Origin: a virus | IMG/VR virus record: IMGVR_UViG_3300020733_000083 | Location: 1-22,797 of that record | Direction: 5' to 3' (one strand) | Length of the DNA: 22,797 nt | In this document: in pieces, positions 1,286 through 19,778 of the stretch | Layout: every line of letters begins with the position of its first letter | Numbering within the stretch: position 1 is the stretch's first letter | Position numbers and translations under genes: made by a program | Notes under the pieces: generated by a model | Told to the model about the DNA's origin: nothing | Databases searched by the model: none | Seen by the model: only the letters and a program-made list of their open reading frames with translations

Positions 1286-1522
1286 TTATTTGATTTGGTG
1301 GTAGTCTTCTGCCCAACGCACCACTTGCTCCAAACTTTCCCAGCGGTCTCCGTGGTGCTTTTTGATGTGGTCGATCGGCATAGGAGCGTTGAGCTTTTGC
1401 ATCATGCGGTCAGCTTTGCTCTCGCCAATGTGTACGGCAATTGCCTTGAGTTCGGCAGGCGTCAGATTCTCAAACACCCATTCATCGGTCTTTGGATCCC
1501 ACCGCGCTTGTGCTGGATTCAT
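1286..1522 (-). CDS. Hypothetical protein, 78 aa, first gene after the operator-promoter
   Basis: A 78-aa protein starting MNPAQARWDP, with paired Trp residues near the C-terminus (W-E-S-L-E-Q-V-V-R-W). The start at 1522 is chosen because AAAGGA lies seven bases upstream. A longer frame reaching 1570 would run back through the promoter at 1551-1586. As the first gene after that promoter it is probably strongly and early expressed. No known domain recognised. Confidence 0.75.
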   Translation of the reverse strand: MNPAQARWDPKTDEWVFENLTPAELKAIAVHIGESKADRMMQKLNAPMPIDHIKKHHGDRWESLEQVVRWAEDYHQIK

Positions 1523-1550
1523 TGCAATGTCCTTTACTGAAGTTGATTGA

Positions 1551-1586
1551 GCCTGAATCATATAGCACAATGATTCAGGCTGTCAA
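1551..1586 (-). promoter_or_regulatory. Strong promoter with overlapping palindromic operator
   Basis: On the minus strand TTGACA (1586..1581), a 16-base spacer, then an extended -10 TGC-TATATG (-10 hexamer 1564..1559). Between and across these lies a perfect inverted repeat, GCCTGAATCA (1551-1560) and TGATTCAGGC (1571-1580), with a 10-base spacer. The palindrome covers the -10 and the spacer, as expected for a repressor operator. Transcription would begin near 1552, giving a leader of about 30 bases before the gene at 1522. Function is inferred from sequence only. Confidence 0.7.
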
Positions 1587-1600
1587 GAAGTTTTTGACAG
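1580..1600. repeat. Second inverted repeat upstream of the promoter
   Basis: CTGTCAA (1580-1586) and TTGACAG (1594-1600) form perfect 7-bp arms around GAAGTTT. One arm contains the -35 hexamer, and the repeat abuts the operator palindrome at 1551-1580. It could be a second regulator site or a hairpin just after the primase-helicase stop at 1607. It lacks a following T-run on the minus strand, so it is a poor intrinsic terminator for that gene. Confidence 0.6.
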
Positions 1601-1606
1601 ATATTT

Positions 1607-3925
1607 TTATGCAGCTTTTTTCTGCATATTGACCACGACGTTTTTGGCCTCGATGGGCGTTTCAATCATGCGGCGCAGCTCGGATTTGCTATGGGTTTCG
1701 GCAATCTCTGGGGCACAGAAGATGCGTTTTTTGTTGGGGAAATCGGTAGAAGCGATGCGCCCCATGTCCTTCCAACCAGCTTCTTTGAGCGCGTGCAGCA
1801 GCGCGGCTTGAGGGATCTTTGTGCCGCTGGGCGCCACGCCCGTGAGCCGATCGCATACGCTGTGGAATGGGCTGCCGATCATGCCGCGCTGGAACTCGCC
1901 CAAACGGTTGCGCAACATCTCCACAATGAACGACTCGGCCATGCTCATGCCGTGCTCCACCAAGTTCATCTTGAACTCGGTCATCATCGGTGTTTCGGAT
2001 GGGTTGAACTTGGACACATCGCGGTTTTTGAGCCACAAGGCCACAGCCTGAAAGCCCCCAGCGTGGTACCAATCCCACATTGCCTTGGCGCGGTCTGCGG
2101 CCATGCGCGGGGCTTGCGACCAAACGCAGAACCAGCGACGATCTTGTGAAGGCAAGGAAATTGGCACAGGGTCATTGGAAAATGCCAACACAAACGTGCG
2201 GTTGACCATCATGTAAGGGTGCAGCCCCTTGCGGTTGATGGGTAGCATGTCGGGCGGCGCCGCAATGATGGGCTTGAGCTTATTGGCCAATGCCCTGCGG
2301 GTGGCCGCGTCGGGTTCTTTCAATTCGTTGATCAAAAGGATTTCAGATTCAAGCTGATAGCCCCACTGCGAATTCACGCTGTCGCTGTCCATGATCCCAC
2401 GGTTGCGCAGGTTGGCGCCGCAGACCGACCAAATAAACGGTGCCCACATCGTATCTTTGCCCGAACCCTCATCGCCGCCGTGCAAAATAGCGTGGTTGAT
2501 CTTGATGTGTGGGTTTTGCAGCTTAAACGCCATGACGTTGAAGATGTGCTCAAGCTCCGTGTCGTTAGGGATAAGCTCACGGCAATGCGCCAGCCAAGGC
2601 TCGATGTCCGAAGGCGTCACGCCTGACAAATCTGGCCGCGCGTCGCGCCAGCGGTTGCCGTAGAGCTGGCCGTCGCGTTTGAGCAGCACGCCGTCGCCGG
2701 GGGCGTAAGTGATGCCCACCAGCGCCTGCGCGTTGCGGCGGTCGCGGTTCTCATCAAAACACACCGACGCCTCGATGCGCCTGCCCGTGTGGATAGACTT
2801 GCAGCTTATATGGCGGTACAGGGCGTTGAAGGTGCTGCGAGAAATTTCGCGGCGCTCCACTTGGTCGAAGTACGCATCATCATCTTGGATATAGGCGAAG
2901 CGCCCATACCAATCATCTTTTTGCATCCGGCCAAGTTCTTTTTGCTCTATCTCAGCGATCGCTTCATCGGCAGTCGCCTGAAACATGTCCGAGGGCTGGA
3001 TCTTCGCCAGCGCCTCGCCCATTTTCTCGCTCAACAACTCTGAGCGTATGCCGGGCTCATGCTTAGGTGCACCCAATGTCGTCAGCCATTCAAGATATGC
3101 CCGTGAATTCAGCCCTTCGCAGGAGCTGTGGTAACAGCAAAACGACCGATGGATCGGGTTGTACCGCGCCATTGGATTGCCGTCACTGTGCTTGTCGGCT
3201 TGTGGGCAGAGCACGCCAGCCCAGCCGGACATATTGGGGCGCTCAAACAACATGGCGTTGTCGGCCACGAAATTGAGGATTTCATCGTCGCCGTCGTCTT
3301 CAAGCTTGACACCGCGCATGGTGGCGCTGTCTGCGTCGCCGGGCACCACGCCCAAAGCGTTGCAGATTTGGTCAAGCGTGAACTCGCGCTCGGGGTGGAA
3401 CTCCACCAACTTGGATTCAAAGAAATCTTTGCCCGCTTTCAGGTTGACCGAGCCGGGGATGCGGAAGTTGCGCACGGCGTTGATCGCGCCCTTGTCGGTG
3501 AACCCAGCTTCGGCGACGGCTTTGATGGCTGCGGCAAATTCGCCTTTAGTGGGCTGCTCGGAAAATGTGTAGCCCCATTGATAGTTGCCGGGCGAAGTCT
3601 CCATGATCCAAGTCGGCTCAATGGGCGGCGTCTTGGATTTGGTGCCCACGTCGTCAAGCACCATGACCAACACATATTCGCAGTTGGCGGCGCTGGCCGA
3701 GGGCTTGTTGCCCGCAAAGCGATCCAAAATAAAACAGCCCGTGTTGGCGTAAAACGCCGAACCGGGCTTGACGATGTGATCTGGCGGGAAGGCTGGCCAA
3801 ACGTATTTTGGCGTGCCGTCGTTGTGCAGTACAGGCTCTCCGTCCTTGCGTACTGGTTTTTGTTGAACGAGCAAAACCGTCTCGCCCTCTGGGGCAAGAC
3901 CCGCGATATAATCGATGAACTCCAA
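1607..3925 (-). CDS. Primase / SF3-type helicase fusion (DUF5906-like), 772 aa
   Basis: Replication primase-helicase. The N-terminal part looks like an archaeo-eukaryotic-type (RepB-like) primase: L-D-D-V-G near residue 90, S-P-G-N-Y-Q-W near 111-117 and R-N-F-R-I-P-G near 152-158. A Cys/His cluster follows (C240, C263, C264, H266, C269) and may bind zinc. The C-terminal half is a helicase of the DUF5906/SF3 type, with Walker A G-G-D-E-G-S-G-K-D-T at about 483-492, Walker B E-I-L-L-I-N-E at about 528-534, and S-N-D-P-V-P followed by Q-D-R-R-W-F. The start is a TTG at 3925, seven bases after AAAGGAG; no ATG lies in frame nearby. It would make primers and unwind DNA for the adjacent polymerase. 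Confidence 0.9.
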   Translation of the reverse strand: MEFIDYIAGLAPEGETVLLVQQKPVRKDGEPVLHNDGTPKYVWPAFPPDHIVKPGSAFYANTGCFILDRFAGNKPSASAANCEYVLVMVLDDVGTKSKTPPIEPTWIMETSPGNYQWGYTFSEQPTKGEFAAAIKAVAEAGFTDKGAINAVRNFRIPGSVNLKAGKDFFESKLVEFHPEREFTLDQICNALGVVPGDADSATMRGVKLEDDGDDEILNFVADNAMLFERPNMSGWAGVLCPQADKHSDGNPMARYNPIHRSFCCYHSSCEGLNSRAYLEWLTTLGAPKHEPGIRSELLSEKMGEALAKIQPSDMFQATADEAIAEIEQKELGRMQKDDWYGRFAYIQDDDAYFDQVERREISRSTFNALYRHISCKSIHTGRRIEASVCFDENRDRRNAQALVGITYAPGDGVLLKRDGQLYGNRWRDARPDLSGVTPSDIEPWLAHCRELIPNDTELEHIFNVMAFKLQNPHIKINHAILHGGDEGSGKDTMWAPFIWSVCGANLRNRGIMDSDSVNSQWGYQLESEILLINELKEPDAATRRALANKLKPIIAAPPDMLPINRKGLHPYMMVNRTFVLAFSNDPVPISLPSQDRRWFCVWSQAPRMAADRAKAMWDWYHAGGFQAVALWLKNRDVSKFNPSETPMMTEFKMNLVEHGMSMAESFIVEMLRNRLGEFQRGMIGSPFHSVCDRLTGVAPSGTKIPQAALLHALKEAGWKDMGRIASTDFPNKKRIFCAPEIAETHSKSELRRMIETPIEAKNVVVNMQKKAA

Positions 3926-3944
3926 GTCATTTCTCCTTTGTTTG

Positions 3945-3972
3945 CGCCCGTCTACCAACGGGCGTTTTCTTT
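3945..3972 (+). terminator. Hairpin plus T-run, oriented against the operon
   Basis: CGCCCGT (3945-3951) and ACGGGCG (3958-3964) form a perfect GC-rich 7-bp stem with a 6-base loop, followed on the plus strand by TTTTCTTT. This is a typical intrinsic terminator for plus-strand transcription, yet both flanking genes are on the minus strand. On the minus strand no T-run follows, so it would act there only as a hairpin between polymerase and primase, just upstream of the primase ribosome-binding site. Confidence 0.55.
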
Positions 3973-5941
3973 ACTTGCCGTAACGCTCCATCACCTTAAT
4001 ATCGGCGTTCAATGGCAAGCCCTGTGCCCATTCGGGCGGCGTACACATCACTCGTTTCATTTCGGCGACAACAGCATCAGGTTGATTGGTTTCGACAACG
4101 ATTTCATCGTGCACGTGCAGCACGACGTCATCGATGTTGCGAAGAGAATGCCGCAGGATGTCATTCGCTGCGGCTTGTGTGATATTTTCACATGCAAGCC
4201 CTTTCCACAATCTTGCACGTGGCCATTCTTTTGCTTCAGCGGCAGGCTTCCAAGCAGCTTTTGCATAGGTAACGGCATCATCTTCCAAACGTGCGAAGGG
4301 ATAACATAGTACTCGACCAGAAGGCAATGCGTACCATAGGTGAACCCCATCAAACATATAGGTTACTCGCCCTGCTGAGAACTCAGCATTTGGATTACGC
4401 ATGGCTCTGGTGTAAGCTTCTTCCAGCTGTTGCCAGAATCTCACCGCCCAAGGATTCGCGCGGCGCCACGCATCAACAGTGCGACGAGAATCAGACTCAG
4501 GAAGAATGATTCCGTAATTACGACCCATAGCGGTAAAAGCGCCAACACCACCGCCATACCCGCAACTAAGAATAGCAACCTTACCAATTTGACGGCGTTC
4601 AGAACCACCAGTTTGCTCAATTTCATCTTCGATCTCACTTTCAGGGCAATGGAAAATACCTGCGGCCTCGCGGATATAAATGTCCCGACCTGAGCGAAAC
4701 ACATTCAGCACTTCTTCAGCGCGGTCATGGTTGGAGCACCAAGGATTCATGCGCGCTTCAATGGCAGACCAATCGGCCACGACAAACACTTTGCCCTTGG
4801 CCGGAACCATCGCCGGACGCAACATGCCTTTGAGCACATCGGTCACACGGTTGCCAAACTGCGGCACGATTTTGCCCTTGGCCACCATGACGTCACGCAC
4901 GCGCTGAGGCTCTTTGGCGCATTTGCGCGTGAAGTTGTGCACCTGTAAGCCCATGCTCGAAGCCCTACCCGTGGCGCTGCCGCCATTGAACATGAACGCT
5001 CCGCGCACGCGCTGATCCTCAAAGTCAGCCAACGATGCCATGCGTCGGAACTTGGCCACAGACGACGCCCACAGATCGTCGGCGCATTGAATCACGTCAG
5101 CCACGTGAGGTGGAATCTCATCGGGATTTTCATCCGCAAACACAAGTAAGTTAGCGCGTACTGACTTATCAATGGAGTATTTGCGTTCGCCGTCTTTGTA
5201 GCTCTCCATCATTTTCTTGGCTTCATCGCCCACGCGCTCCAACACCCATTGACGCATTCTGGGGCTTCGCACGCTGGTGATCTCGCCTTCGGTAATGTCT
5301 TGCACCAGCGTTTCGATGTCTTCGAGCTCGATGGTGGCGTAATACATGGCGGCTTGCGCCAAGTCCACATCCACGCGCACGCCACGGTCGTTGATGCGCT
5401 CGTTGATGTGGTAGTCCAACAGCTCCAAGTCTGTAAGCTGGCGCTGCATTTGACTGTTCTCGCGCATGGCACGAACGTCTTGTTCACAATAATCAACCAT
5501 CTCTTGCATGAGCTTGGGGTCTTCGTTGAACTCGCCATCTTGATTGGGGATGGACAGCAACCGGATCAATTGCGAACCGCGAAAGTCTTTGCGCATCCCA
5601 GCGCCAATAAATCGCCCTACGTCATCCAGTGAGCCGGGGGCGCAGTTGGCGCGCGCTTGAGCAGCTGTGCAATAGAACTGCTCCAGCTTGAAATTGATTT
5701 GTAAAACATACCAGAAGATCAGTCGCTCGAACGCAGCGTTGTGCGCGCGGATCTGACCTTTGAATTCTTTGACCTCTTTTGGAAAAGGTTGGCCGGGCAC
5801 CCATGTGACGACATCTTCGTCGTCAAAGGCGTAGGACATGCAAAGCACCTCAGTGCTAAGGTCTTGGGCATAGTTGTATGCGCCGTGGATGAGTAGATTG
5901 CAACGACTTCGTGTTTCAAAGTCAAGCCATAAAACAGACAT
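3971..5941 (-). CDS. Family A DNA polymerase with 3'-5' exonuclease domain, 656 aa
   Basis: Replicative DNA polymerase. Exonuclease motifs are intact: D7-F-E9, H-N-A-A-F-E around 67-72, and Y151-C-E-Q-D155. Polymerase motif A is A-D390-W-S-A-I-E-A-R, motif B is R450-Q-I-G-K454 followed by Y462-G463, and motif C is H611-D612-E613. No 5'-nuclease domain is present, as is usual for phage polymerases. GAGG lies upstream of the ATG. It sits between the ssDNA-binding candidate and the primase-helicase in one operon. A gap of 98 bases with an inverted repeat precedes it. All key residues are present, so it should be active. Confidence 0.95.
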   Translation of the reverse strand: MSVLWLDFETRSRCNLLIHGAYNYAQDLSTEVLCMSYAFDDEDVVTWVPGQPFPKEVKEFKGQIRAHNAAFERLIFWYVLQINFKLEQFYCTAAQARANCAPGSLDDVGRFIGAGMRKDFRGSQLIRLLSIPNQDGEFNEDPKLMQEMVDYCEQDVRAMRENSQMQRQLTDLELLDYHINERINDRGVRVDVDLAQAAMYYATIELEDIETLVQDITEGEITSVRSPRMRQWVLERVGDEAKKMMESYKDGERKYSIDKSVRANLLVFADENPDEIPPHVADVIQCADDLWASSVAKFRRMASLADFEDQRVRGAFMFNGGSATGRASSMGLQVHNFTRKCAKEPQRVRDVMVAKGKIVPQFGNRVTDVLKGMLRPAMVPAKGKVFVVADWSAIEARMNPWCSNHDRAEEVLNVFRSGRDIYIREAAGIFHCPESEIEDEIEQTGGSERRQIGKVAILSCGYGGGVGAFTAMGRNYGIILPESDSRRTVDAWRRANPWAVRFWQQLEEAYTRAMRNPNAEFSAGRVTYMFDGVHLWYALPSGRVLCYPFARLEDDAVTYAKAAWKPAAEAKEWPRARLWKGLACENITQAAANDILRHSLRNIDDVVLHVHDEIVVETNQPDAVVAEMKRVMCTPPEWAQGLPLNADIKVMERYGK

Positions 5942-5970
5942 GAGTGTGAGCCCTCGGAAAATAAGGTACG

Positions 5971-6026
5971 GCTATTCAGGAGAGTGGCAGGTGCTAACGC
6001 TTATACAAGCCGAATTCCTGAATAGC
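5971..6026. repeat. 11-bp inverted repeat with 34-base loop upstream of the polymerase gene
   Basis: GCTATTCAGGA (5971-5981) and TCCTGAATAGC (6016-6026) are perfect complementary arms in the 98-base gap between the ssDNA-binding candidate and the polymerase. On the minus strand the loop contains TTGTATAAG, which resembles an extended -10 element, but no good -35 is seen. It may be an RNA hairpin controlling polymerase expression or a protein-binding site. It is the longest non-coding gap in the replication operon. Confidence 0.65.
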
Positions 6027-6039
6027 TTTCCCCGATCAA

Positions 6040-6717
6040 TTAAACAGCAGCACGACGGCGGCGTGTTGGCGCAGTCTCAGCAGGTGCTTCAGCTTCAGTT
6101 GCAGGTTCAGGCGCATCACCACCTTCGGCCTCAGCAGCTGGCGCAGCTTCTTCGGTCATACCCATCCAGCCCACGATTTCAAACACGGGTGTGTAGATAC
6201 GGCCATAAGACTTGTGACTGTAGTGATCCTTTTTCAAAGACACAATGGCCACAGGCTTGCTTGGGTCTTTTTCGATCTGATCAGCAATGGCTGCGCCCAA
6301 AGTTTGAACAGCGCGTTTGCCGCCCACAGAAGTGGTGGTGTAGCGTGCTTCCATACCAGCGTCTTCGCCGTTGGTGCATTTCATCGACAAACCGACTTGT
6401 GATTCCCAACCCTTTTTAGCGCCTTTAGGTGCTTCATCCAGATCAGGCAATGGCTCATTGATGGCAACCATCTTCTCGCCCAAAACGTCGCCGTCACCCC
6501 AAGCAATAAAGCCGTGGATGAAGCTGAATGGGTTGATAGCCCATTGTGAATCAGATTCGATTTCGGTTTGATCAGCGCCAAAAACCCAGTGGCCTGTCTT
6601 GTCCATTTTGATGATGACGTGACCTGCGTTTTCCACTTTCATGGTACGCAAAGCGTTGGCAACATTCGCAACAGCGGGAAGACCAGCAGATTTAAAAACT
6701 GAGAGTTGATTTGACAT
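6040..6717 (-). CDS. Putative ssDNA-binding protein, 225 aa
   Basis: A 225-aa protein starting MSNQLSVFKSAG, with a folded region to about residue 182 containing H-W-V-F-G-A-D, N-P-F-S-F-I-H-G-F and a Y-G-R-I-Y-T-P stretch. The tail (about 185-225) is Ala/Glu/Pro-rich and ends R-R-R-R-A-A-V. The position between a DUF2800 nuclease and the polymerase is where many phages encode a DUF2815 ssDNA-binding protein. This sequence is not clearly DUF2815, so the function rests on synteny and on recalled similarity to equivalent phage proteins. AAGGA precedes the ATG. Confidence 0.6.
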   Translation of the reverse strand: MSNQLSVFKSAGLPAVANVANALRTMKVENAGHVIIKMDKTGHWVFGADQTEIESDSQWAINPFSFIHGFIAWGDGDVLGEKMVAINEPLPDLDEAPKGAKKGWESQVGLSMKCTNGEDAGMEARYTTTSVGGKRAVQTLGAAIADQIEKDPSKPVAIVSLKKDHYSHKSYGRIYTPVFEIVGWMGMTEEAAPAAEAEGGDAPEPATEAEAPAETAPTRRRRAAV

Positions 6718-6726
6718 TTTTTTTCC

Positions 6727-7866
6727 TTAGTTAAGTTTAGAGAGGGCAGCAGTCATTTGCTGTCCGATTTTCAATACGGCGGGGCGGGGATCGCTCTCCG
6801 ACGCCATCGTAGTGCCTGATGAAATCGCCATGACGAGATCGTCTGGCAACTCCAACTTGCGCTTTTTAAGCACCTTCTCAACTTGAGCAGGGCTTAGTAA
6901 TTCTGGTTTGCTGAAGATGTCGTCAAAGTTTAACTCCATCTTGAACAAGGCTTGCATGGTTTCATCTTTGTTCAACTTCCATTGGCGCGTAGCGCGTTTG
7001 GAAACGAGCTTGAATCCGGGCACAGGTGCACCTGAGTCAAGGATCTGATGCGCCAGCGCGCGCACGTCCTTGATCCAATCTTCTAGCGCGTCTGCCACAA
7101 CAAGGTACTCAGATAACTTGGTCTTGTCGATTGCTTGAATGGCAATCTTTTGCACGCGCTCGACTTCGCCTGTCTTCAAAGGGCAAGTGGGTTTGGCCGC
7201 GCACCAACGGCAGTGCGATCCATCTTTTATGGGCGCATCAGGCGTTTGCGCCAGCTTCACAGCGCGCGCCAATTCGACCTCAAATTGTTTGATGCGCTCT
7301 ACACTTGTTGTCCAGCGCTTAACTTCTGGCGGTTGAACGATGATGATCTCTACCTCATCGATGTCTTCAAACGCCCATTGCACAGCTGGCGTGCGCATGG
7401 CAGCGCCTGCGTAGAACAAACCTTGGTCGTTTTCTTCAGCCTCAACGACAACGCCGTCGCCAAATTTCCAATCGAGAATGACAGCCTTGCGACCCAGTTT
7501 GCCGATAACGTCAGCTGAACCAAACGCGCCGGGAATGAAGTCGCCGAAGTTCACGTAGTTCTCAACGACCAAATCCATCTGGCAATCTGGATCGATCTCG
7601 TCCAAGGCTTTGAGCGCAGGCACAAGTTTTTCTTCAAAAAGCTCTTCTGTCAGCTCAATGCCTTCGTGCTTGCGCCCAATGACTGAACGTGGTTCTAAGT
7701 CCTTGCCCAAAATGTCAGCGATGGCATCATGCAGCAGGGTGCCACGATCTGCATGTTCGCTTGAGGGCTTGGGCGGCATCTTGGCGCACAACGCCACAGA
7801 GCCGGGACAGTTGATGACTCGTTTAGCGGTTGAACCGCCGACGATGGATGAGTGAAGTGAGGCCAT
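6727..7866 (-). CDS. DUF2800 Cas4/RecB-like PD-(D/E)XK nuclease, 379 aa
   Basis: Nuclease of the RecB/Cas4 superfamily (DUF2800). Visible motifs are R-G-T-L-L-H46, G-S-A-D119 (motif I), V-I-L-D132-W-K134 (the D-x-K core) and Q148-G-L-F-Y152. C20 in V-I-N-C-P, together with C219, C222 and C228 (spacing CxxCx5C), matches the four-Cys arrangement that holds a 4Fe-4S cluster in Cas4 and AddB-type nucleases. Its ATG overlaps the previous stop (TAATG). It probably processes DNA ends during phage replication or recombination. The family is clear; biochemical activity is inferred. Confidence 0.88.
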   Translation of the reverse strand: MASLHSSIVGGSTAKRVINCPGSVALCAKMPPKPSSEHADRGTLLHDAIADILGKDLEPRSVIGRKHEGIELTEELFEEKLVPALKALDEIDPDCQMDLVVENYVNFGDFIPGAFGSADVIGKLGRKAVILDWKFGDGVVVEAEENDQGLFYAGAAMRTPAVQWAFEDIDEVEIIIVQPPEVKRWTTSVERIKQFEVELARAVKLAQTPDAPIKDGSHCRWCAAKPTCPLKTGEVERVQKIAIQAIDKTKLSEYLVVADALEDWIKDVRALAHQILDSGAPVPGFKLVSKRATRQWKLNKDETMQALFKMELNFDDIFSKPELLSPAQVEKVLKKRKLELPDDLVMAISSGTTMASESDPRPAVLKIGQQMTAALSKLN

Positions 7867-8356: not shown

Positions 8357-8389
8357 TTGAGAGTCCTTTACTTGAATGTTTGAACCCTC

Positions 8390-8418
8390 ACTATAGCACA
8401 AAAATTTATTTGTGCTAA
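8390..8418 (-). promoter_or_regulatory. Leftward promoter of the replication operon
   Basis: On the minus strand a -35 TTAGCA (8418..8413), a 17-base spacer, and an extended -10 TGC-TATAGT (hexamer 8395..8390). It would start RNA near 8383, about 27 bases before the lipoprotein gene at 8356. The -35 and the TGC part of the -10 are the two arms of a 9-bp palindrome shared with the opposite promoter. Confidence 0.65.
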
Positions 8419-8421
8419 ACT
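8393..8421 (+). promoter_or_regulatory. Rightward promoter, probably giving a leaderless mRNA
   Basis: On the plus strand ATAGCA (8393-8398), a 17-base spacer and an extended -10 TGC-TAAACT (hexamer 8416-8421). The expected start of RNA, about seven bases later, falls at or next to the ATG at 8429, and no Shine-Dalgarno sequence is present. It overlaps the leftward promoter almost completely. Confidence 0.55.
8394..8417. repeat. Palindrome between divergent operons
   Basis: TAGCACAAA (8394-8402) and TTTGTGCTA (8409-8417) are perfect 9-bp arms separated by AATTTA. Each arm provides the -35 of one promoter and the extended -10 start of the other. The same TTGTGCTA string is present at the -10 of the promoter at 1551-1586. 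Confidence 0.75.
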
Positions 8422-8428
8422 TTCTGAC

Positions 8429-8713
8429 ATGATTGAAAAAGAAGTCGAAAATTATTTTGTTTGGAAAGTCGCCATGTTAGGCGGTAAGTCCTACAAATTT
8501 AAATCACCCAACCAGCGCGGCGTGTCTGATCAGGTTGCCTGCATGGTAAACGGCCATACGTGGTTTGTCGAACTTAAACGACCCAAAGGCGGCAAGCTGT
8601 CTGAATTACAAAAGCTGTTTGCAAGAAACATGCTGGGGTTGAATCAGAAGTATGCGCTGTTGAATACCAAGGAACAAATTGATGAGTGGGCAAAACAGTT
8701 TGAAATTGCGTGA
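8429..8713 (+). CDS. VRR-NUC domain nuclease, 94 aa
   Basis: A stand-alone virus-type replication-repair nuclease of the PD-(D/E)XK superfamily. The core is G-V-S-D34 followed by F-V-E48-L-K50, then S-E-L-Q61. At 94 aa it has the usual size of minimal phage VRR-NUC proteins, which are known to act as structure-specific (Holliday-junction-type) nucleases. It is the first gene of the rightward operon and overlaps the helicase start by 32 bases. The ATG has no Shine-Dalgarno sequence and lies right at the predicted RNA start. Confidence 0.9.
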   Translation: MIEKEVENYFVWKVAMLGGKSYKFKSPNQRGVSDQVACMVNGHTWFVELKRPKGGKLSELQKLFARNMLGLNQKYALLNTKEQIDEWAKQFEIA

Positions 8714-10037
8714 CTACCAAGAGGTAGCCGCCGACTTCATCTTCGAGCACGACAGAGCAATGGTGCTGGCGCCTGTTGGCGCGGGCAAGACTGCTATCAC
8801 GCTTACGGCCATGCAAGACATGATCAACAGCGGCCACGTCAACGGTTGGTTGGTCTTAGCCCCAAAGCGTGTGTGTACGGATGTATGGCCTGTGGAGTTG
8901 CCCAAGTGGGCACCCAAACTGTCTATGGCTTTAGCCGTAGGCACGCCCAAACAACGTCAAGCTGCGGTGGCGTCTGACGCCCATGTGGTCGTGATCAATT
9001 ACGACAATTTGCAATGGTTGGCCGAACAAGACTTATCTAGTTTTGACGGCATTGTGTTTGACGAGCTCACACGATTGAAAAATGCGTCAGGCAAACGCTT
9101 TAAGGCGTTGCACAAAGTCATCGATCACTTCAAGATTCGCTGGGGTCTGACAGGCTCGTTTACCAGCAATGGCCTTGAAGATGTGTTCGGTCAATGCAAA
9201 ATCGTTGACACCAAGCTCTTAGGCCGAAGCAAGGGCGCGTTTCTTCAGCAATTCTTCGTGTGTATCAACCGCGACTACGGCGATTGGGCGCCCCGTCCCG
9301 GCGCGCTGGAAGGCGTCATGGCTAAGATCAAGCCTGCCACCTATGTGCTCGATGCTGGCGACTACAAAGACAAACTGCCACCCTGTCATACGGTGGAGAT
9401 GCGCTGCGACATGGAGCGCCAACACTACGAGAAAATGAAAGCTGATTTCGTTGTGGAATTTCCCGACGCGCGCGCCGTGGCTGCAAACGCTGCGGTGGTG
9501 ACAGGCAAATTGCAACAGATGGCCAGTGGATTCGTTTATGAGACAACCAAAAAACCAAACCCAGAAAAGCCCGGTAAGTTCATCGTCACTCAAAAACCTG
9601 TTTGGTTTAGTTCGCACAGGTTTGATCTTCTTGAAGACCTTTTGGAAGAGAACCAAAGAGCCAACACAATTGTCGTCTATAACTATCAAGAAGAATTGGC
9701 CGAGCTTTTACGGCGCTATTCCCATGCCGTCACCATCGACGACAACGACGCAATTGGACGTTGGAACGCTGGGCGAGTTGAGCTACTACTTATACATCCT
9801 AAGTCAGCAGGACACGGACTCAATCTACAGCATGGGGGGTGCCGAATGGTATTTTTGTCCTTGCCTTGGTCGTTGGAGCTGTACGAACAAACTGTGGGAA
9901 GACTACATCGCAGCGGTCAACGGTTCGCGGTGTGGGTCTACATTCTGCTCACTAACAAGACAGTAGATGAAAAGATTTGGGCGGCGCTCCACGATAAACG
10001 CGCCATTAGTGACATTGCAATGGAGGAACTTAGATGA
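8682..10037 (+). CDS. SNF2-type DEAD/DEAH helicase, 451 aa
   Basis: Superfamily 2 ATPase/helicase. Motif I is A-P-V-G-A-G-K-T near residue 30-37, motif II is V-F-D-E-L near 126-130, motif III region is L-T-G-S-F-T near 157-161, and motif VI is Q-T-V-G-R-L-H-R-S-G-Q near 403-413, typical of SNF2 proteins. The ATG at 8682 lies eight bases after AAGGA and inside the end of the VRR-NUC gene; a TTG one codon earlier is less likely. Phages often pair this helicase with VRR-NUC, DUF2800 and a family A polymerase. It probably remodels replication or recombination forks. Confidence 0.92.
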   Translation: MSGQNSLKLRDYQEVAADFIFEHDRAMVLAPVGAGKTAITLTAMQDMINSGHVNGWLVLAPKRVCTDVWPVELPKWAPKLSMALAVGTPKQRQAAVASDAHVVVINYDNLQWLAEQDLSSFDGIVFDELTRLKNASGKRFKALHKVIDHFKIRWGLTGSFTSNGLEDVFGQCKIVDTKLLGRSKGAFLQQFFVCINRDYGDWAPRPGALEGVMAKIKPATYVLDAGDYKDKLPPCHTVEMRCDMERQHYEKMKADFVVEFPDARAVAANAAVVTGKLQQMASGFVYETTKKPNPEKPGKFIVTQKPVWFSSHRFDLLEDLLEENQRANTIVVYNYQEELAELLRRYSHAVTIDDNDAIGRWNAGRVELLLIHPKSAGHGLNLQHGGCRMVFLSLPWSLELYEQTVGRLHRSGQRFAVWVYILLTNKTVDEKIWAALHDKRAISDIAMEELR

Positions 10038-10198
10038 CACGACTCAAAGCCTATGAGATAAAACTTAAGGCACTCAAAGCTGAATTGCGCATCCGCGCAA
10101 GGACGCTCAACTCAGCGCAGCGCAGCCACAACAGCACTGTAAAAAAATTAACCGCACTGGAGGAAAAAATTGGAAAACTTAAATTGGCGCGAACTTAA
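10034..10198 (+). CDS. Small basic coiled-coil protein, 54 aa
   Basis: A 54-aa frame starting MTRLKAYEIKLKALK, very rich in Lys, Arg, Leu and Ala with heptad-like spacing. Its ATG overlaps the helicase stop (ATGA), with GGAGGAAC upstream, and its end overlaps the start of the 64-aa gene by 29 bases. Likely a helical DNA- or protein-binding accessory. No named family recognised. Confidence 0.7.
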   Translation: MTRLKAYEIKLKALKAELRIRARTLNSAQRSHNSTVKKLTALEEKIGKLKLART

Positions 10199-10364: not shown

Positions 10365-10690
10365 GCAAGATTGCACAAACCCTAGCCCAACGCCAAAAGA
10401 CCCACGGCAATTTCGCTACCCATGCTGAAATAAGTCAAAAGCTAAAAGCCGTCATGTACGAGTCTGAGGGCTGGCAAGACTTACCGTATGAGCACTGCGA
10501 GGCACTTGAGATGATTGCGCACAAGATAGCTCGTATCTTGAATGGCGACCCATGTTTCATTGATAGCTGGCGAGACGTTTGCGGCTATTCTCAATTAGTT
10601 GTCAATAAATTGACAAATTTTGAAGGTGCTACAGATGTCAAAGTCACTCGTCAGATTGTAAAGAATGGTGAGTTGGTTGACGCAAAGTAG
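10361..10690 (+). CDS. DUF6378-like phage protein, 109 aa
   Basis: A 109-aa protein with Q-K-T-H-G-N-F near residue 12-18, H-A-E-I-S-Q-K-L-K, E-A-L-E-M-I-A-H-K-I-A-R, L-N-G-D-P and D-S-W-R-D-V-C-G-Y. This conserved pattern is that of the DUF6378 phage family, which has no assigned function that I can name. The ATG overlaps the stop of the preceding gene (ATGA). Its last codons contain the -35 of the putative promoter for the next gene. Confidence 0.8.
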   Translation: MSKIAQTLAQRQKTHGNFATHAEISQKLKAVMYESEGWQDLPYEHCEALEMIAHKIARILNGDPCFIDSWRDVCGYSQLVVNKLTNFEGATDVKVTRQIVKNGELVDAK

Positions 10691-10704
10691 CTTTATGATA
10701 TTAT
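10677..10704 (+). promoter_or_regulatory. Possible own promoter of the HNH-like gene
   Basis: TTGACG (10677-10682), 16 bases, then TATTAT (10699-10704) preceded by TGA, an extended -10-like context. The RNA would start at about 10711, i.e. at the ATG (10710) itself, which lacks a usable Shine-Dalgarno sequence. The sequence is locally AT-rich, so a chance match is possible. Confidence 0.4.
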
Positions 10705-10709
10705 AGGTT

Positions 10710-11258
10710 ATGACCAATAGATCAAAATGGAAAAATCCTTCGGGCACCAAGACTTATTTTGCTTGGCGCAACATGTGCAGACGTTGTCAAGATAAAAAAG
10801 ACATTGCGTGGGTTAACTATGGCGGAAGAGGAATAACTGTATGCGCCAGATGGTTGAAAAGTTACGACAATTTTTTTGCTGATATGGGTGAAGTCCCTGA
10901 CGGCAAATCTTTGGATAGGTTAGACACAAATAAAGGTTATAGCCCTAACAATTGTCGATGGGCTACAAAAGAAGAGCAATTGAATAATCAGCGACGTAAC
11001 GTGAGACTGACTCACAACGGTATGACGTTGACTGTTTCTCAATGGGCTAAGAAGCTTACATTGCGCACTGATACTTTATTTAAGCGTTTACAACGTATGC
11101 CGATAGAAAAGGCTTTGGTAAGTGGAAAATTGAGAACTTGGGTTCACGGCACAAGAGCCGGATACGAGTCACATAAGTGCAGATGCACTCTTTGTACAGA
11201 AAGCAATAATGCAAGACACAGGGCTCAACGAGCTGCCCGTAAAAGAAAGGAAAAATAA
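10710..11258 (+). CDS. HNH-like putative endonuclease with DNA-binding domain, 182 aa
   Basis: N-terminal part has C23-R-R-C26, Y-G-G-R-G-I-T-V-C-A-R-W, S-L-D-R-L-D and G-Y-S-P-N-N-C-R-W-A-T, a pattern found in phage HNH-like proteins related to mobile endonucleases. A helix-turn-helix-like segment follows (T-V-S-Q-W-A-K, T-L-F-K-R-L, about 108-127). The tail has G-T-R-A-G-Y and C-R-C-T-L-C, a possible small zinc-binding motif, and ends in a Lys/Arg-rich stretch. The gene is visibly more AT-rich than its neighbours and may be a mobile insertion. Nuclease activity is inferred; it could instead be a regulator. Confidence 0.6.
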   Translation: MTNRSKWKNPSGTKTYFAWRNMCRRCQDKKDIAWVNYGGRGITVCARWLKSYDNFFADMGEVPDGKSLDRLDTNKGYSPNNCRWATKEEQLNNQRRNVRLTHNGMTLTVSQWAKKLTLRTDTLFKRLQRMPIEKALVSGKLRTWVHGTRAGYESHKCRCTLCTESNNARHRAQRAARKRKEK

Positions 11259-14651: not shown

Positions 14652-17600
14652 TTATCTAAAAATTGCCACATTAACAGTGAGTTGGTTTTGCGCCGAACCA
14701 GTATCAGTTCCAAAACCTGTCAAACGCAAAGATGTCGTTGCTGGCGCTGTTTTTCTGCTTCCTTGAATACCAGCATATCCCGAGCCAGAACCGTCAACCC
14801 CGTTGTTCACGCCCGTAACATACGCATAGTTTGTATCAGCAAGCGTTATTGAAAAGTTTACCGTGTAATCACCTGTTCCATTGTAAGTAACTGAACTTAC
14901 ATTTAAAGAAGCCCTTGGTGAGTTTGTGCCGCTTATAGTTCCATTAAAGTTAACCCACAATTGACAAACGCCGCCACTCATAGGAGAACTATTTGTAATG
15001 GTCACACCACCAGTGGATGCACTAACAGAAATGCCAGTGCCAGCAGAAATTGAAGTTACAGGAGTTGCATAGGTTTGGTCGCCACGCAAATATGTAGAAC
15101 TGGAAGCAGTGCCTGAACCAAGTCTTGCAGTTGGCACAGTTCCTGATGCAAGATTGGAAGCATTGGTGTAGTAGCTTGCGGATTGTCCATTCAACTGGGT
15201 AGCGTTAGTTGCTGTACCAACAGTTAAAGTACTTGGCGCAACATAAGTAGGCGCGCTTGCGCCAGCTGTTAGAACATAACCTGAAGTGCCAAGAGCAAGG
15301 AATGAAGTCGCTCCCGAACCTGTGTTGTATGCCAAAGAGCCAGCCGCACCACCCAAAATATTGGTTGTATTGGTTGAGTTTGTTACAGCTGTTGTTCCAA
15401 TTGCTGTTGCAATTTGAGAGCCAGTAGCCGCAGAAAGCGCAGTTCCATTGCCGTATAAAACGCCAGTGATACTTGTGCTTAAAGTAATTGCGGGTGTAGT
15501 TGTTGCGGTTGCAACAGTTCCAGCAAAACCGTTTGCGGAAACAACAGAAACACTTGTCACAGTGCCCGAACTACCTGAACCGTTAGATGCGGCTGTGATT
15601 CGACCGTAAGCATCAACGGTAATGTTCGCTGCTGTATAAGAACCTGCGGTCACAGCCGTTGTTGACAAAGCCAATACTGGAGTTGTTCCACCAGTAGATG
15701 AAATTTGACCTGTCGTGCCGCTGACCGATTGGACAGGCGTATAAGTCAAAGCAGTAGTGACATCGCTAGAAGTAAGCGTTACAGCGCCTGTTCTAGTGTT
15801 GAAAGAAGTCACACCACCAGCGCCATTTGATGCGGCTGTGATTCGACCGTAAGCATCAACAGTAATGTTTGCTGTTGTATATGAGCCAGCTGTGACAGCT
15901 GTAGTGCCAAGAGCAATCGTGACAGCCGAAGAACCGTTGTAACTTGTTCCTGTCAAGCCAGTGCCAATTGTCAAGGCATTCAAGTTTGAGCCAAGAGAAA
16001 CACCCGAAATGGTACTGTTAGCTAATTGACTATTACTAATAGTTCCTGATAATGCTGTTGTTGGTATGGTTGTCGATGCAGTCATTGCACCTGTTCCATT
16101 TCCATACACATACCCCGTCAATGATGTTGCGCCAGTTCCACCATAAGCCGCACCAATCGCATTGCCATTCCAAGTGCCATTAGTATATGAACCAGCCCAA
16201 GAAAGTGTATTGGTAGACCAACTTGCATTTGATGGCGCAACATTATGGTAATCCCAAGAGCCAGCCGCAATCGAATTGCTTATCAAAACAACTTGAATAT
16301 ATGCGCCCGATTGGGTAGTGCAAACTGTTGTTCCCGAATTGTTTTTAATAACAATCGTGCCTGACGATTGGTTATTGTTAAAAGTAAACAATGCACCATT
16401 TGGCAATGTTGTTGCATCAGGCAATTGAATTGTTTGACCGCCTGAACCTGTAATCAACCAATTTTGAACCGATGCAACTGTCAAAACAATTGCTGTCCCA
16501 CTTGCGGCTTGTGAAGTAAAACCTTCAAAAACACAATTTGCATTGATGTTTGCATTGGCATCACGCAAAACAACTGAATTTGCACCGCTGGATGCCGTGA
16601 CTCCAGTTCCACCATTGGCAACAGCCAAAACTCCTGTCACCCCAGTTGTCAAAGGCAATCCAGTAGCATTGGTCAAAGTACCCGAAGAAGGTGTACCCAA
16701 TGCGCCGCCATTGACCACAAAAGCGCCAACACTGCCAGTATTTAAAGCAAGAGCAGTTGCAACGCCTGTTCCCAATCCTGTGATTGAAGTCACAGCTGGT
16801 GTCACTGTTGTATTACTAGCCGCTGTCAGCTGACCTTGAGCATTGACAGTGAAAGTGCCGACCTGAGTGGCAGAGCCATAAGAACCAGAACTCACAGTAG
16901 TGTTGGTGATGCTGAATGTGTTACCTGTCAGCGTCAGTCCTGTGCCAGCCAAATAAGTGCCAGCGCCACTAAATTGAACCCAAGTGACGGGGGTAGTGCC
17001 CAGAGTGCCGCCCGGGTCAACTGTACAAGTCCACCCAGTGTCAGCTTGTGTTGTACCTTCTTCCACAAACACAAACGCAGAAACCAACTGACTCCATGTA
17101 TTTGCATCCGATGAGCGAGTCCATGCGCCCGAGGAAGAAACATAAATACCATTGTTTTGAGACAGCGATTGGTTTTTAACCAAAACTCGGCTTGAAGATG
17201 TTGTCACACCATCAATAGTTTGTTCGCCTGACAATGTAATGTTTGCAGTTGTTGCAACCAAAACTGGGGATTTAGGAGCAAGACCTTGAGCTACTGTGTC
17301 AACATACAACTTGTTTGCAATGTCGGTCGTATTTACAGGGGCTGAAGAAATAGAACCAGTGGTCAAAGTGACCGCATTGATGGTTGTATTTGTTACCGCA
17401 GTAATTTGACCTTGTGCATTAGTGGTGATAACAGGAACTTGATACGATGAACCGTAAGTACCCGCTGTTCCCACATTACCAAGTGCAATAGTGACCGCTG
17501 AACCTCCGTTGTAGGATGTTCCTGTCAATCCTGTTCCAATGGTCAAGGAATTGGAAACTTGGGTCGCAGTTCCTGTCAAATTGGCTGTGATTGTTCCAGC

Positions 17601-19778
17601 ACTAAAGTTGCCTGAAGCATCTCGAGCCACAATGGTTGATGCTGTGTTTGCATTTGTTGCATCAGTGGCGATTGTCACAGCCGATGAACCATTGTAGGAA
17701 CTGCCTGTCAAATGAGTTCCAAATGTCAAGCTGTACAAATTAGACCCAAGCGAAACACTTGAAATGGTGCTGTTGGCTAATTGAGCGTTTGTAATAGTTC
17801 CTGAAAGGGCTGTTGTAGGAATGGTGGTCGATGCTGTCATCGTGCCTGTACCATTGCCGTACACATAACCAGTTAATGTTGTTGCACCTGTTCCACCATT
17901 AGAAGGTGTAATTGTTGTTGCATTCCAAGTTCCTGTTGTAACAGTGCCGAGCGTGACCAAGCTGGTAGAACCAGCCAAGGGCGATGCACCAACAGAGTTA
18001 TAGGAAATGGTGACAGGTGAACTGCCATTAAAAGTTGAACCTGATGCCGCACCTGACCCGCTGTTGTTGAATGTCAAAGCATTGGGTGTGTCAGCGGTCA
18101 CGGTTGTTGAGCCGCCCAAAGAAACCAAATTCCCATTGATTGTGATTGACGAATAAGTCAATCCTGAATTTGGAATGGTAGTTTGAACACTGATTTGACT
18201 GCCGCCATTGGCATATACATAACCTGTGTAATTGCCAAGCGTGACCGCACCCGATGCGCTCAATGTTGTGAATTTACCAGTGCTAGGAGTTGTTGCTCCG
18301 ATTGGCGTATTGTCCAAACTGTCAAGAGTTAAAGAAACTCCCGAAATCGTCCCGCCTGTAATTGCAACAGAATTTGCATTTTGGGTGGACATTGTTCCCA
18401 AGCCTGAAACTTGGGTATTGCTGATTGCAATAGAGACAGTTGAAGCGGCGGTCAGTTGGCCTTGGGCATTTACCGTAAAAGTGCCAACCGAGCCAGCCGA
18501 GCCATAAGACCCAGCAGTCACAGCCGTGTTCGCAATAGAAACTGTTTGAGAAGCCGAACCGTCAAAACTTCCGCTGTTTAATCCAGTTCCAAAAGTCAAA
18601 GGATGAATTGTGGCGGCTGTAATTGTTCCGCTTCCACCCAATGCAACAGTCACGCCGTTGTAAGTCACTGAACTGTTGTTCAACGCACTATTTGGAATGT
18701 TTGTCAGGGTATTTGTTGAGCCATTGATGCTGACACCAGCAAAAGTTGTCAAAGTTCCACCAAGCGCCAAATTGATCGAACCAATAGTCACTGATGAATT
18801 TTGCAAACTTGAATTTGGAATCGGCGCATTGATTTGACTTGGAGCAATGCTGATTGGTGTATTTGATGCACTGGTTACTTGACCTTGTGCATTCAAAACC
18901 AGTGTTGGCACTGATGCCGCAACACCATAAGAACCAGCGGCCACACCTGTATTTGTGATGCTGAACTGTGTTCCAGTTAATGTCAAACCCGTACCAGCGG
19001 TATAAGTGCCCATACCTGAGAACTGAGTCCAAACAATAGGAGTGACTCCAATTGTCCCCGACTCGGGCGCGATCACATTCCAGCCAGTGTTGGTATAGAG
19101 AGTGCCGTTTTGAACAAATGTCGAAGCGCCGGGTACTTGTGACCATGCCGACATATCGTTTGATCTAGCCCAAGCCGTAGTGCTCGCAACATAAATACCG
19201 TTATCAGCTTGATTTGATTGATTTTTTACAAGAACCCTGTCGCCCGCCAAAGTGGTGTATCCGTCAATGACTTGCAATCCTGACAAAGTAATTGCAGTAG
19301 TTGTCGCGCATTGACATTCGCCTTTTGAAGTTCCTTGCGAAATTGAATCTGCATAAGCCTTGTTTACCAAATCAGTGGCTTGTGTTGGCGCGGAAACAAC
19401 TTGCCCTGTTTGGGTAAGCATATTTGAGAATGATGCCGAATAAAGCCCATTCTCCAAACCATAAATTTGAGCAAATGCACTACCAGTGCCAGCAGTCATC
19501 AAGTTTACAATATAACTGCCAATTGCCCAAGCTTTAGCAACTGTACCTTCTTGTCCTCGCTGTACAGTCAATACGTCGTCAGCTATGTTAGTGCAAAGGA
19601 CAATTTCATTAATGAGTTGACTTTGCGTACTAACAAGCGTCAATTTAATTGCTTGATTTGTAGAAGGTGCTGGAAAGTATGACCCAGTTCCCGCCGCAAC
19701 AGTGATGGTTGTGTCGGTGCTTGCAATCGGAAGAGCAAGAGCAGTTTGCGCTTGATTTGCAAATAATAAAGTGGTCAT
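14652..19778 (-). CDS. Giant repetitive tail-fibre / receptor-binding protein, 1708 aa
   Basis: A Ser/Thr/Gly/Ala-rich fibre protein. The N-terminal ~100 residues match the N-terminus of the 376-aa fibre-like protein (shared R-G-Q-E-G-T) and probably attach to the tail. The middle holds six copies of an N/D-A-Q/Y-G-Q/R-x-T-A-x-S motif and two large duplicated blocks. Near the end, T-Q-L-N-G-Q-S-A-S-Y-Y-T-N-A-S-N-L-A-S-G and T-Y-L-R-G-D-Q-T-Y-A are standard fibre repeats. The last ~105 residues (from W-V-N-F-N-G, with N-G-T-G-D-Y-T-V-N-F) resemble receptor-binding tips of phage fibres. GAGG precedes the ATG. No protease or chaperone motif was recognised. Confidence 0.85.
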   Translation of the reverse strand: MTTLLFANQAQTALALPIASTDTTITVAAGTGSYFPAPSTNQAIKLTLVSTQSQLINEIVLCTNIADDVLTVQRGQEGTVAKAWAIGSYIVNLMTAGTGSAFAQIYGLENGLYSASFSNMLTQTGQVVSAPTQATDLVNKAYADSISQGTSKGECQCATTTAITLSGLQVIDGYTTLAGDRVLVKNQSNQADNGIYVASTTAWARSNDMSAWSQVPGASTFVQNGTLYTNTGWNVIAPESGTIGVTPIVWTQFSGMGTYTAGTGLTLTGTQFSITNTGVAAGSYGVAASVPTLVLNAQGQVTSASNTPISIAPSQINAPIPNSSLQNSSVTIGSINLALGGTLTTFAGVSINGSTNTLTNIPNSALNNSSVTYNGVTVALGGSGTITAATIHPLTFGTGLNSGSFDGSASQTVSIANTAVTAGSYGSAGSVGTFTVNAQGQLTAASTVSIAISNTQVSGLGTMSTQNANSVAITGGTISGVSLTLDSLDNTPIGATTPSTGKFTTLSASGAVTLGNYTGYVYANGGSQISVQTTIPNSGLTYSSITINGNLVSLGGSTTVTADTPNALTFNNSGSGAASGSTFNGSSPVTISYNSVGASPLAGSTSLVTLGTVTTGTWNATTITPSNGGTGATTLTGYVYGNGTGTMTASTTIPTTALSGTITNAQLANSTISSVSLGSNLYSLTFGTHLTGSSYNGSSAVTIATDATNANTASTIVARDASGNFSAGTITANLTGTATQVSNSLTIGTGLTGTSYNGGSAVTIALGNVGTAGTYGSSYQVPVITTNAQGQITAVTNTTINAVTLTTGSISSAPVNTTDIANKLYVDTVAQGLAPKSPVLVATTANITLSGEQTIDGVTTSSSRVLVKNQSLSQNNGIYVSSSGAWTRSSDANTWSQLVSAFVFVEEGTTQADTGWTCTVDPGGTLGTTPVTWVQFSGAGTYLAGTGLTLTGNTFSITNTTVSSGSYGSATQVGTFTVNAQGQLTAASNTTVTPAVTSITGLGTGVATALALNTGSVGAFVVNGGALGTPSSGTLTNATGLPLTTGVTGVLAVANGGTGVTASSGANSVVLRDANANINANCVFEGFTSQAASGTAIVLTVASVQNWLITGSGGQTIQLPDATTLPNGALFTFNNNQSSGTIVIKNNSGTTVCTTQSGAYIQVVLISNSIAAGSWDYHNVAPSNASWSTNTLSWAGSYTNGTWNGNAIGAAYGGTGATSLTGYVYGNGTGAMTASTTIPTTALSGTISNSQLANSTISGVSLGSNLNALTIGTGLTGTSYNGSSAVTIALGTTAVTAGSYTTANITVDAYGRITAASNGAGGVTSFNTRTGAVTLTSSDVTTALTYTPVQSVSGTTGQISSTGGTTPVLALSTTAVTAGSYTAANITVDAYGRITAASNGSGSSGTVTSVSVVSANGFAGTVATATTTPAITLSTSITGVLYGNGTALSAATGSQIATAIGTTAVTNSTNTTNILGGAAGSLAYNTGSGATSFLALGTSGYVLTAGASAPTYVAPSTLTVGTATNATQLNGQSASYYTNASNLASGTVPTARLGSGTASSSTYLRGDQTYATPVTSISAGTGISVSASTGGVTITNSSPMSGGVCQLWVNFNGTISGTNSPRASLNVSSVTYNGTGDYTVNFSITLADTNYAYVTGVNNGVDGSGSGYAGIQGSRKTAPATTSLRLTGFGTDTGSAQNQLTVNVAIFR
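15911..16145 (-). repeat. Fibre duplication B, copy 2
   Basis: Encodes a block from G-G-T-G-A-T-S-L-T-G-Y-V-Y-G-N-G to S-Y-N-G-S-S-A-V-T-I-A. It matches 17668-17901 closely, including T-A-S-T-T-I-P-T-T-A-L-S-G-T. Boundaries approximate. Confidence 0.7.
16803..17335 (-). repeat. Fibre duplication A, copy 2
   Basis: Encodes a block of about 178 residues from D-I-A-N-K-L-Y-V-D to N-A-Q-G-Q-L-T-A-A-S-N. It contains R-V-L-V-K-N-Q, N-N-G-I-Y-V, and G-T-G-L-T-L-T-G, all shared with 18850-19383. Boundaries approximate. Confidence 0.7.
17668..17901 (-). repeat. Fibre duplication B, copy 1
   Basis: Counterpart of 15911-16145 about 1.75 kb away, sharing most residues including G-Y-V-Y-G-N-G-T-G and Q-L-A-N-S-T-I-S. 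Boundaries approximate. Confidence 0.7.
18850..19383 (-). repeat. Fibre duplication A, copy 1
   Basis: Counterpart of 16803-17335 about 2.05 kb away, sharing R-V-L-V-K-N-Q, D-N-G-I-Y-V-A-S, S-D-M/A-x-x-W-S-Q, T-G-W and W-T/V-Q-F-S-G. Boundaries approximate. Confidence 0.7.

Follow-up and report, generated by a model that had tools for sequence, protein, structure and literature searches.

Two overlapping, back-to-back predicted extended -10 promoters between the nuclease and replication operons of a freshwater phage family

Our analysis strongly suggests that a 32-bp block at positions 8390-8421 of a phage DNA fragment consists of two overlapping, back-to-back extended -10 promoters of the sigma-70 type, that these serve the replication and nuclease operons of a probably lytic phage, and that the palindrome lying in the block is incidental to them. 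The fragment is a 22.8-kb IMG/VR virus record (the window, that is, the whole stretch of 22,797 nucleotides that was analyzed), and it is 99.5% identical to a stretch of a 51.8-kb contig, G001. The phage is a freshwater one and probably lytic.

The block separates two divergent sets of genes. To the left, the first minus-strand ORF is small and lipoprotein-like, and its ATG is at 8356-8354. Then follow, on the same strand, the genes of a DUF2800 nuclease (6727-7866), a phrog_9528 protein (6040-6717) and a DNA polymerase A (3971-5941), which together span 3971 to 7866, and, after DNA polymerase A, that of a DUF5906 primase (1607-3958); all four were assigned by PHROG or domain matches. To the right, the plus-strand operon begins with a VRR-NUC-type endonuclease gene at 8429-8713 (phrog_93 endonuclease, E=1.5e-19; its homologues are annotated as VRR-NUC) and continues with an SNF2/DEAD helicase gene at 8679-10037, which has SNF2-rel_dom and Helicase_C matches. 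The rightward cluster also includes an HNH endonuclease gene (10677-11258), possibly a mobile endonuclease, with a strong extended -10 promoter match of its own (TTGACG-16-TATTAT). A minus-strand gene at 14652-19778 encodes a 1708-residue protein that is tail-fibre-like by sequence, and this gene contains diverged internal repeats, for example 273 nt at 15913 and 17668 that are 75% identical. No tRNA or structured RNA was found in the window, and megablast gave no match to named phages. The closest record by polymerase was the environmental record MW202483 (55% identity), in which the divergent gap differs from that of the window. Because seven of nine related nuclease genes in bacterial assemblies sit in betaproteobacterial bins, the phage host is probably from a betaproteobacterial group.

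The leftward promoter consists of the extended -10 element TGTGCTATAGT (8390-8400, minus strand), in which TG stands upstream of the hexamer TATAGT (8395-8390), and of a weak -35, TTAGCA (8418-8413), which matches at 4 of 6 positions and falls within the right palindrome arm. The rightward promoter is built in the same way from the extended -10 element TGTGCTAAACT (8411-8421, plus strand), with TG upstream of TAAACT (8416-8421), and a -35 of 3 matches in 6, ATAGCA (8393-8398), within the left arm. The spacer is 17 bp in both directions. Both promoters thus carry TRTGn directly upstream of the -10 together with a -35 of the weak kind that extended -10 sigma-70 promoters tolerate, and because both -35s are weak, both would really be of the extended -10 type. 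The leftward promoter scored 9/12 with the TG counted, on an E. coli-like model that a probably betaproteobacterial host may not match, and the activity of the promoters and the host factor that would read them are predicted accordingly. The motif TRTGnTAnanT was not enriched genome-wide (2 observed vs 4.1 expected in G001), so the case for promoters rests on position and conservation. An earlier note on this DNA had described two overlapping divergent promoters with 17-bp spacing both ways, in which each palindrome arm is part of its own extended -10 and of the opposite -35; this description can be read directly in the sequence, and both boxes proved to be conserved in relatives. Both promoters fit in the same 32 bases, and because each -10 occupies the -35 of the other, only one RNA polymerase, judging from its footprint size, would bind at a time. 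The geometry of the predicted promoters therefore supports the exclusion that the same note had proposed. The leftward promoter would drive the replication operon of nuclease, phrog_9528 protein, DNA polymerase A and primase, and the rightward one a leaderless message for the VRR-NUC nuclease and the SNF2 helicase.

The two messages are predicted to begin differently. The rightward -10 ends 7 nt ahead of the nuclease ATG: the discriminator TTCTGAC is followed directly by the ATG at 8429 (8422-8431, plus strand), which leaves no space for a Shine-Dalgarno sequence. Given this distance, transcription is predicted to begin on the A of the ATG or on the adjoining base (8428-8429), and a leaderless mRNA is predicted. 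The leftward leader (8357-8389, minus strand) has GG.TCAAACA near the predicted start, at about 8383, and a Shine-Dalgarno sequence, AAAGGA, before the ATG of the lipoprotein-like ORF. In most relatives, of both geometry classes described below, the leftward leader keeps GG.TCAA(A/T)CA, and the distance of this motif to the -10 is nearly constant; it may be an element of the initiation region or of the leader. A 21-bp predicted leaderless promoter unit, TGTGCTAAACTTCTTGACATG, was also seen ahead of a small MNRLTQLKAKLRAAQAELAIRT gene in other loci (L101, L114, L140, L145, L174 and others). This gene resembles the ORF at 10034-10198 of the window, where the TGTGCTAAACTTCTTGACATG promoter is absent.

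A protein search with the nuclease yielded 80 loci, in whose selection promoter DNA played no part. The gene neighbourhood was the same in all relatives long enough to compare, and their upstream regions fell into two geometries. Class A, in which each -10 lies on the -35 of the other promoter, comprises the window, L005, L012, L050 and most of L060-L081. Class B, in which the -35 hexamers overlap, as TTGACAA/TTGTCAA or similar, and the palindrome is absent, comprises L007-L011, L014, L023, L036 and others. Among 23 diverged clusters from this protein-selected set, the gap between the -10 and the ATG was 6-7 nt in 20, and the promoter score exceeded that of shuffled sequences (p<=0.05) in 15 for the rightward and in 11 for the leftward promoter; this test was weak in some clusters (leftward p=0.64 for L012), and a convincing promoter pair was missing from three (L024, L053 and L061). 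The predicted distance from start to start was 41-47 or 52-64 bp across the 23 clusters. What is conserved in these relatives, and in the 62 sites described below, is both TRTGnTAnanT boxes, their overlap, and a rightward -10 that ends 6-7 nt before the nuclease ATG.

Polymerase competition at the overlap is possible as its selected function: strong firing one way would suppress the other and so set the ratio or order of the left and right replication arms. This would be compatible with the two-promoter explanation and would add a purpose to the overlap. That the overlap is kept in two geometries argues for it, as does the precedent that overlapping promoters can work as switches (PMC4207663). 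However, the compact intergenic space suffices to explain the overlap, and five bidirectional promoters of E. coli fired too seldom at basal level to compete, with competition emerging there only upon strong activation of one direction (PMC12825309). We consider competition as selected function rather unlikely, and somewhat less likely again its fuller form, in which the lytic freshwater phage family keeps an obligatory overlap in two geometries, and the amount of leaderless nuclease/helicase message relative to polymerase/primase message is set by competing RNA polymerases without a regulator. If the overlap is selected, the family would offer natural replicates in two geometries for polymerase competition and would also suit tests of conserved leaderless translation in lytic phages.

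The palindrome, which the earlier note had placed correctly, occupies 8394-8417 without strand and consists of TAGCACAAA (8394-8402), AATTTA (8403-8408) and TTTGTGCTA (8409-8417), with perfect 9-bp arms. It would be a by-product of the two back-to-back extended -10 elements, palindromic in look because both promoters carry the same TGTGC-TA box as RNA-polymerase recognition sequence. Alternatively, it could be a dimeric operator, at which a regulator of phage or host origin would bind TAGCACA...TGTGCTA, cover both promoters and perhaps also the similar site at 1563, and switch the arms together. The perfect arms in the window would fit such an operator, as would the local rarity of an inverted repeat of this kind (arms of at least 9 bp, loop of at most 12), which turned up in just 0.36% of the sequences made by shuffling the 72-bp intergenic gap, and 7-bp arms are intact in L005 and, among the matches listed, in about one third of relatives with similar geometry. 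A dimer operator would, however, be expected to show fixed spacing and coupled arms.

These expectations were compared with a second set of sites, for which viral contigs were scanned for the rightward box and ATG alone, leaving the left arm free; the matches listed included 62 distinct nuclease sites. One set of conserved columns was in part dictated by the pattern searched for, and was left out as independent evidence. In the left box of the 62 listed sites, TG, TA and the final T of TRTGnTAnanT were kept, and the second base (TGTG/TATG), the n and the middle -10 bases varied. The 7-bp arms were identical in just 21 of the 62, and the n agreed between arms in 34, where independent arms would give about 29-32 (a hand calculation from column frequencies which, given the relatedness of the sequences, does not amount to a formal test). 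Arm spacing among the listed sites was 6, 10, 11 or 12 bp; for six sites with a tabled spacer of 16-17 the script had chosen a wrong register, and their leftward -10 is TATG-TATAAT. In L005, whose nuclease gene is identical at 254 of 285 positions, both boxes and the discriminator were unchanged (30/30), with 5/9 in the middle. The 21-bp rightward unit was also found alone in relatives, without the left arm, after another rightward gene and before a small MNRL... gene. Thus, in most relatives the two arms diverge independently, their spacing differs by as much as 6 bp, and the altered positions are those at which an extended -10 element can vary, a pattern that is exactly what two such elements predict. 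Conservation of the palindrome with the same spacing in related phages had been put forward as a test of its role; the flanking genes are kept in the relatives and the palindrome is not. On this arm-by-arm comparison the operator was rejected as the main explanation, and on the sequences compared the palindrome as such would not be the functional unit that is conserved.

The similar site at 1563 does not favor an operator either. The motif TTGTGCTA occurs exactly three times in the window vs about 0.85 expected; two copies are the palindrome arms and the third is at 1570-1563 on the minus strand. The earlier note had placed this copy at the -10 of a promoter at 1551-1586. It does adjoin a promoter, but it lies just upstream of the -10 and is not an extended part of it in the same register: the best -10 is TATGAT (1562-1557), without TG, and the consensus TTGACA (1586-1581) stands 18 bp away. 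The promoter belongs to a second leftward promoter-leader-RBS cassette (1518-1590, minus strand) resembling the leftward promoter at 8418-8357. From promoter to ATG the two stretches align with a local score of 51 vs a maximum of 35 in 2000 shuffles, and the alignment takes in GG.TCAA.CA and AGTAAAGGAC, so what recurs is a repeated promoter-leader cassette and not merely an 8-mer. The contigs that share the 1563 site are all near-identical ones (L003/L223 and L222), and for this reason single control of the three sites was rejected; in other relatives it is absent from the same place, where unrelated sequence, often with a terminator-like hairpin, follows the primase gene. Around the -10 of this second promoter we observed a perfect inverted repeat at 1550-1581, AGCCTGAATCAT-ATAGCACA-ATGATTCAGGCT, with 12-bp arms and an 8-bp loop, which encloses the third TTGTGCTA copy as well and is also confined to the near-identical contigs, and beside it, at 1580-1600, a second hairpin, CTGTCAAGAAGTTTTTGACAG, followed on the plus strand by a T-rich tract and terminator-like for rightward transcripts.

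Searches for HTH_3 (PF01381) and integrase (PF00589) domains found neither in G000 nor in the 51.8-kb G001, records that may be incomplete, and a temperate-phage repressor switch of the CI/Cro type was rejected on this basis. Ten other ORFs of the window had no regulator-like PHROG match, and a small HTH_3 protein was present in three relatives (G024, G026 and G029). The idea that a single regulator controls all three promoters is thus unsupported on three points: the palindrome is unconserved, the HTH_3 search of the 51.8-kb contig found none, and the third copy is absent from the same place in other relatives. Taken together with the lone rightward element, these data make a dimeric operator improbable. 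Least likely by far is that the palindrome arose by chance in AT-rich intergenic DNA and that one side lacks a promoter: shuffling the whole window gives about one repeat of this kind, and just two are present (8394-8417 and 1550-1581), but this one is placed exactly between the divergent genes of the replication region, and both of its boxes are conserved in relatives. The two-promoter explanation also carries a more general lesson: symmetry in a pair of promoters can look like an operator, and selecting relatives on one half alone separates the two readings.

The predicted pair can be compared with several known systems. In the temperate phage lambda, PRM and PR are divergent, PRM gives a leaderless cI message, and the operators between the two promoters are bound by CI and Cro. 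The pair described here shares with lambda the divergent phage promoters and one leaderless message, that of cI in lambda and, as predicted, that of the nuclease here, but, unlike in lambda, neither a repressor (HTH_3) nor an integrase was found in G000/G001. At E. coli bioA/bioB, an imperfect palindrome lies across two overlapping divergent promoters and is bound by BirA. The phage block likewise has a palindrome over overlapping divergent promoters, but its symmetry is not conserved. The bioA/bioB pair is one of the bidirectional promoters studied by Warman, Grainger and colleagues (PMC12825309), in which pseudo-symmetric DNA, as predicted here, lets polymerase bind in either orientation. 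Bidirectional promoters of E. coli and Salmonella share a -10 and have starts 7-25 bp apart (PMC10268837), whereas the phage pair has two separate -10 boxes and predicted starts about 45 bp apart, and thus falls outside that definition.

The closest likeness in form is to the Pc/Pr promoters of plasmid pLS20 (Ramachandran et al. 2014, PMC4207663), whose -10 and -35 boxes coincide reciprocally with the -35 and -10 of the opposite promoter. Because Pc/Pr has been described, the reciprocal form is already known, and the statement in the earlier note that no switch of this form had been described is wrong in general; a limited search of the open-access literature found no phage example. In pLS20, as predicted for the phage, there is room for one RNA polymerase only. 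The switch of pLS20 combines polymerase exclusion with looping and with the plasmid's own regulator, Rco, a repressor of Pc and an activator of Pr (PMC4207663); in the phage, by contrast, no regulator was found when HTH_3 was searched in G000/G001. One promoter of pLS20 is of the extended -10 type, whereas both phage promoters are predicted to be so and one message is predicted to be leaderless. What is new, as read from sequence, is therefore a conserved example of this arrangement in a family of probably lytic freshwater phages, with one arm predicted to be leaderless.
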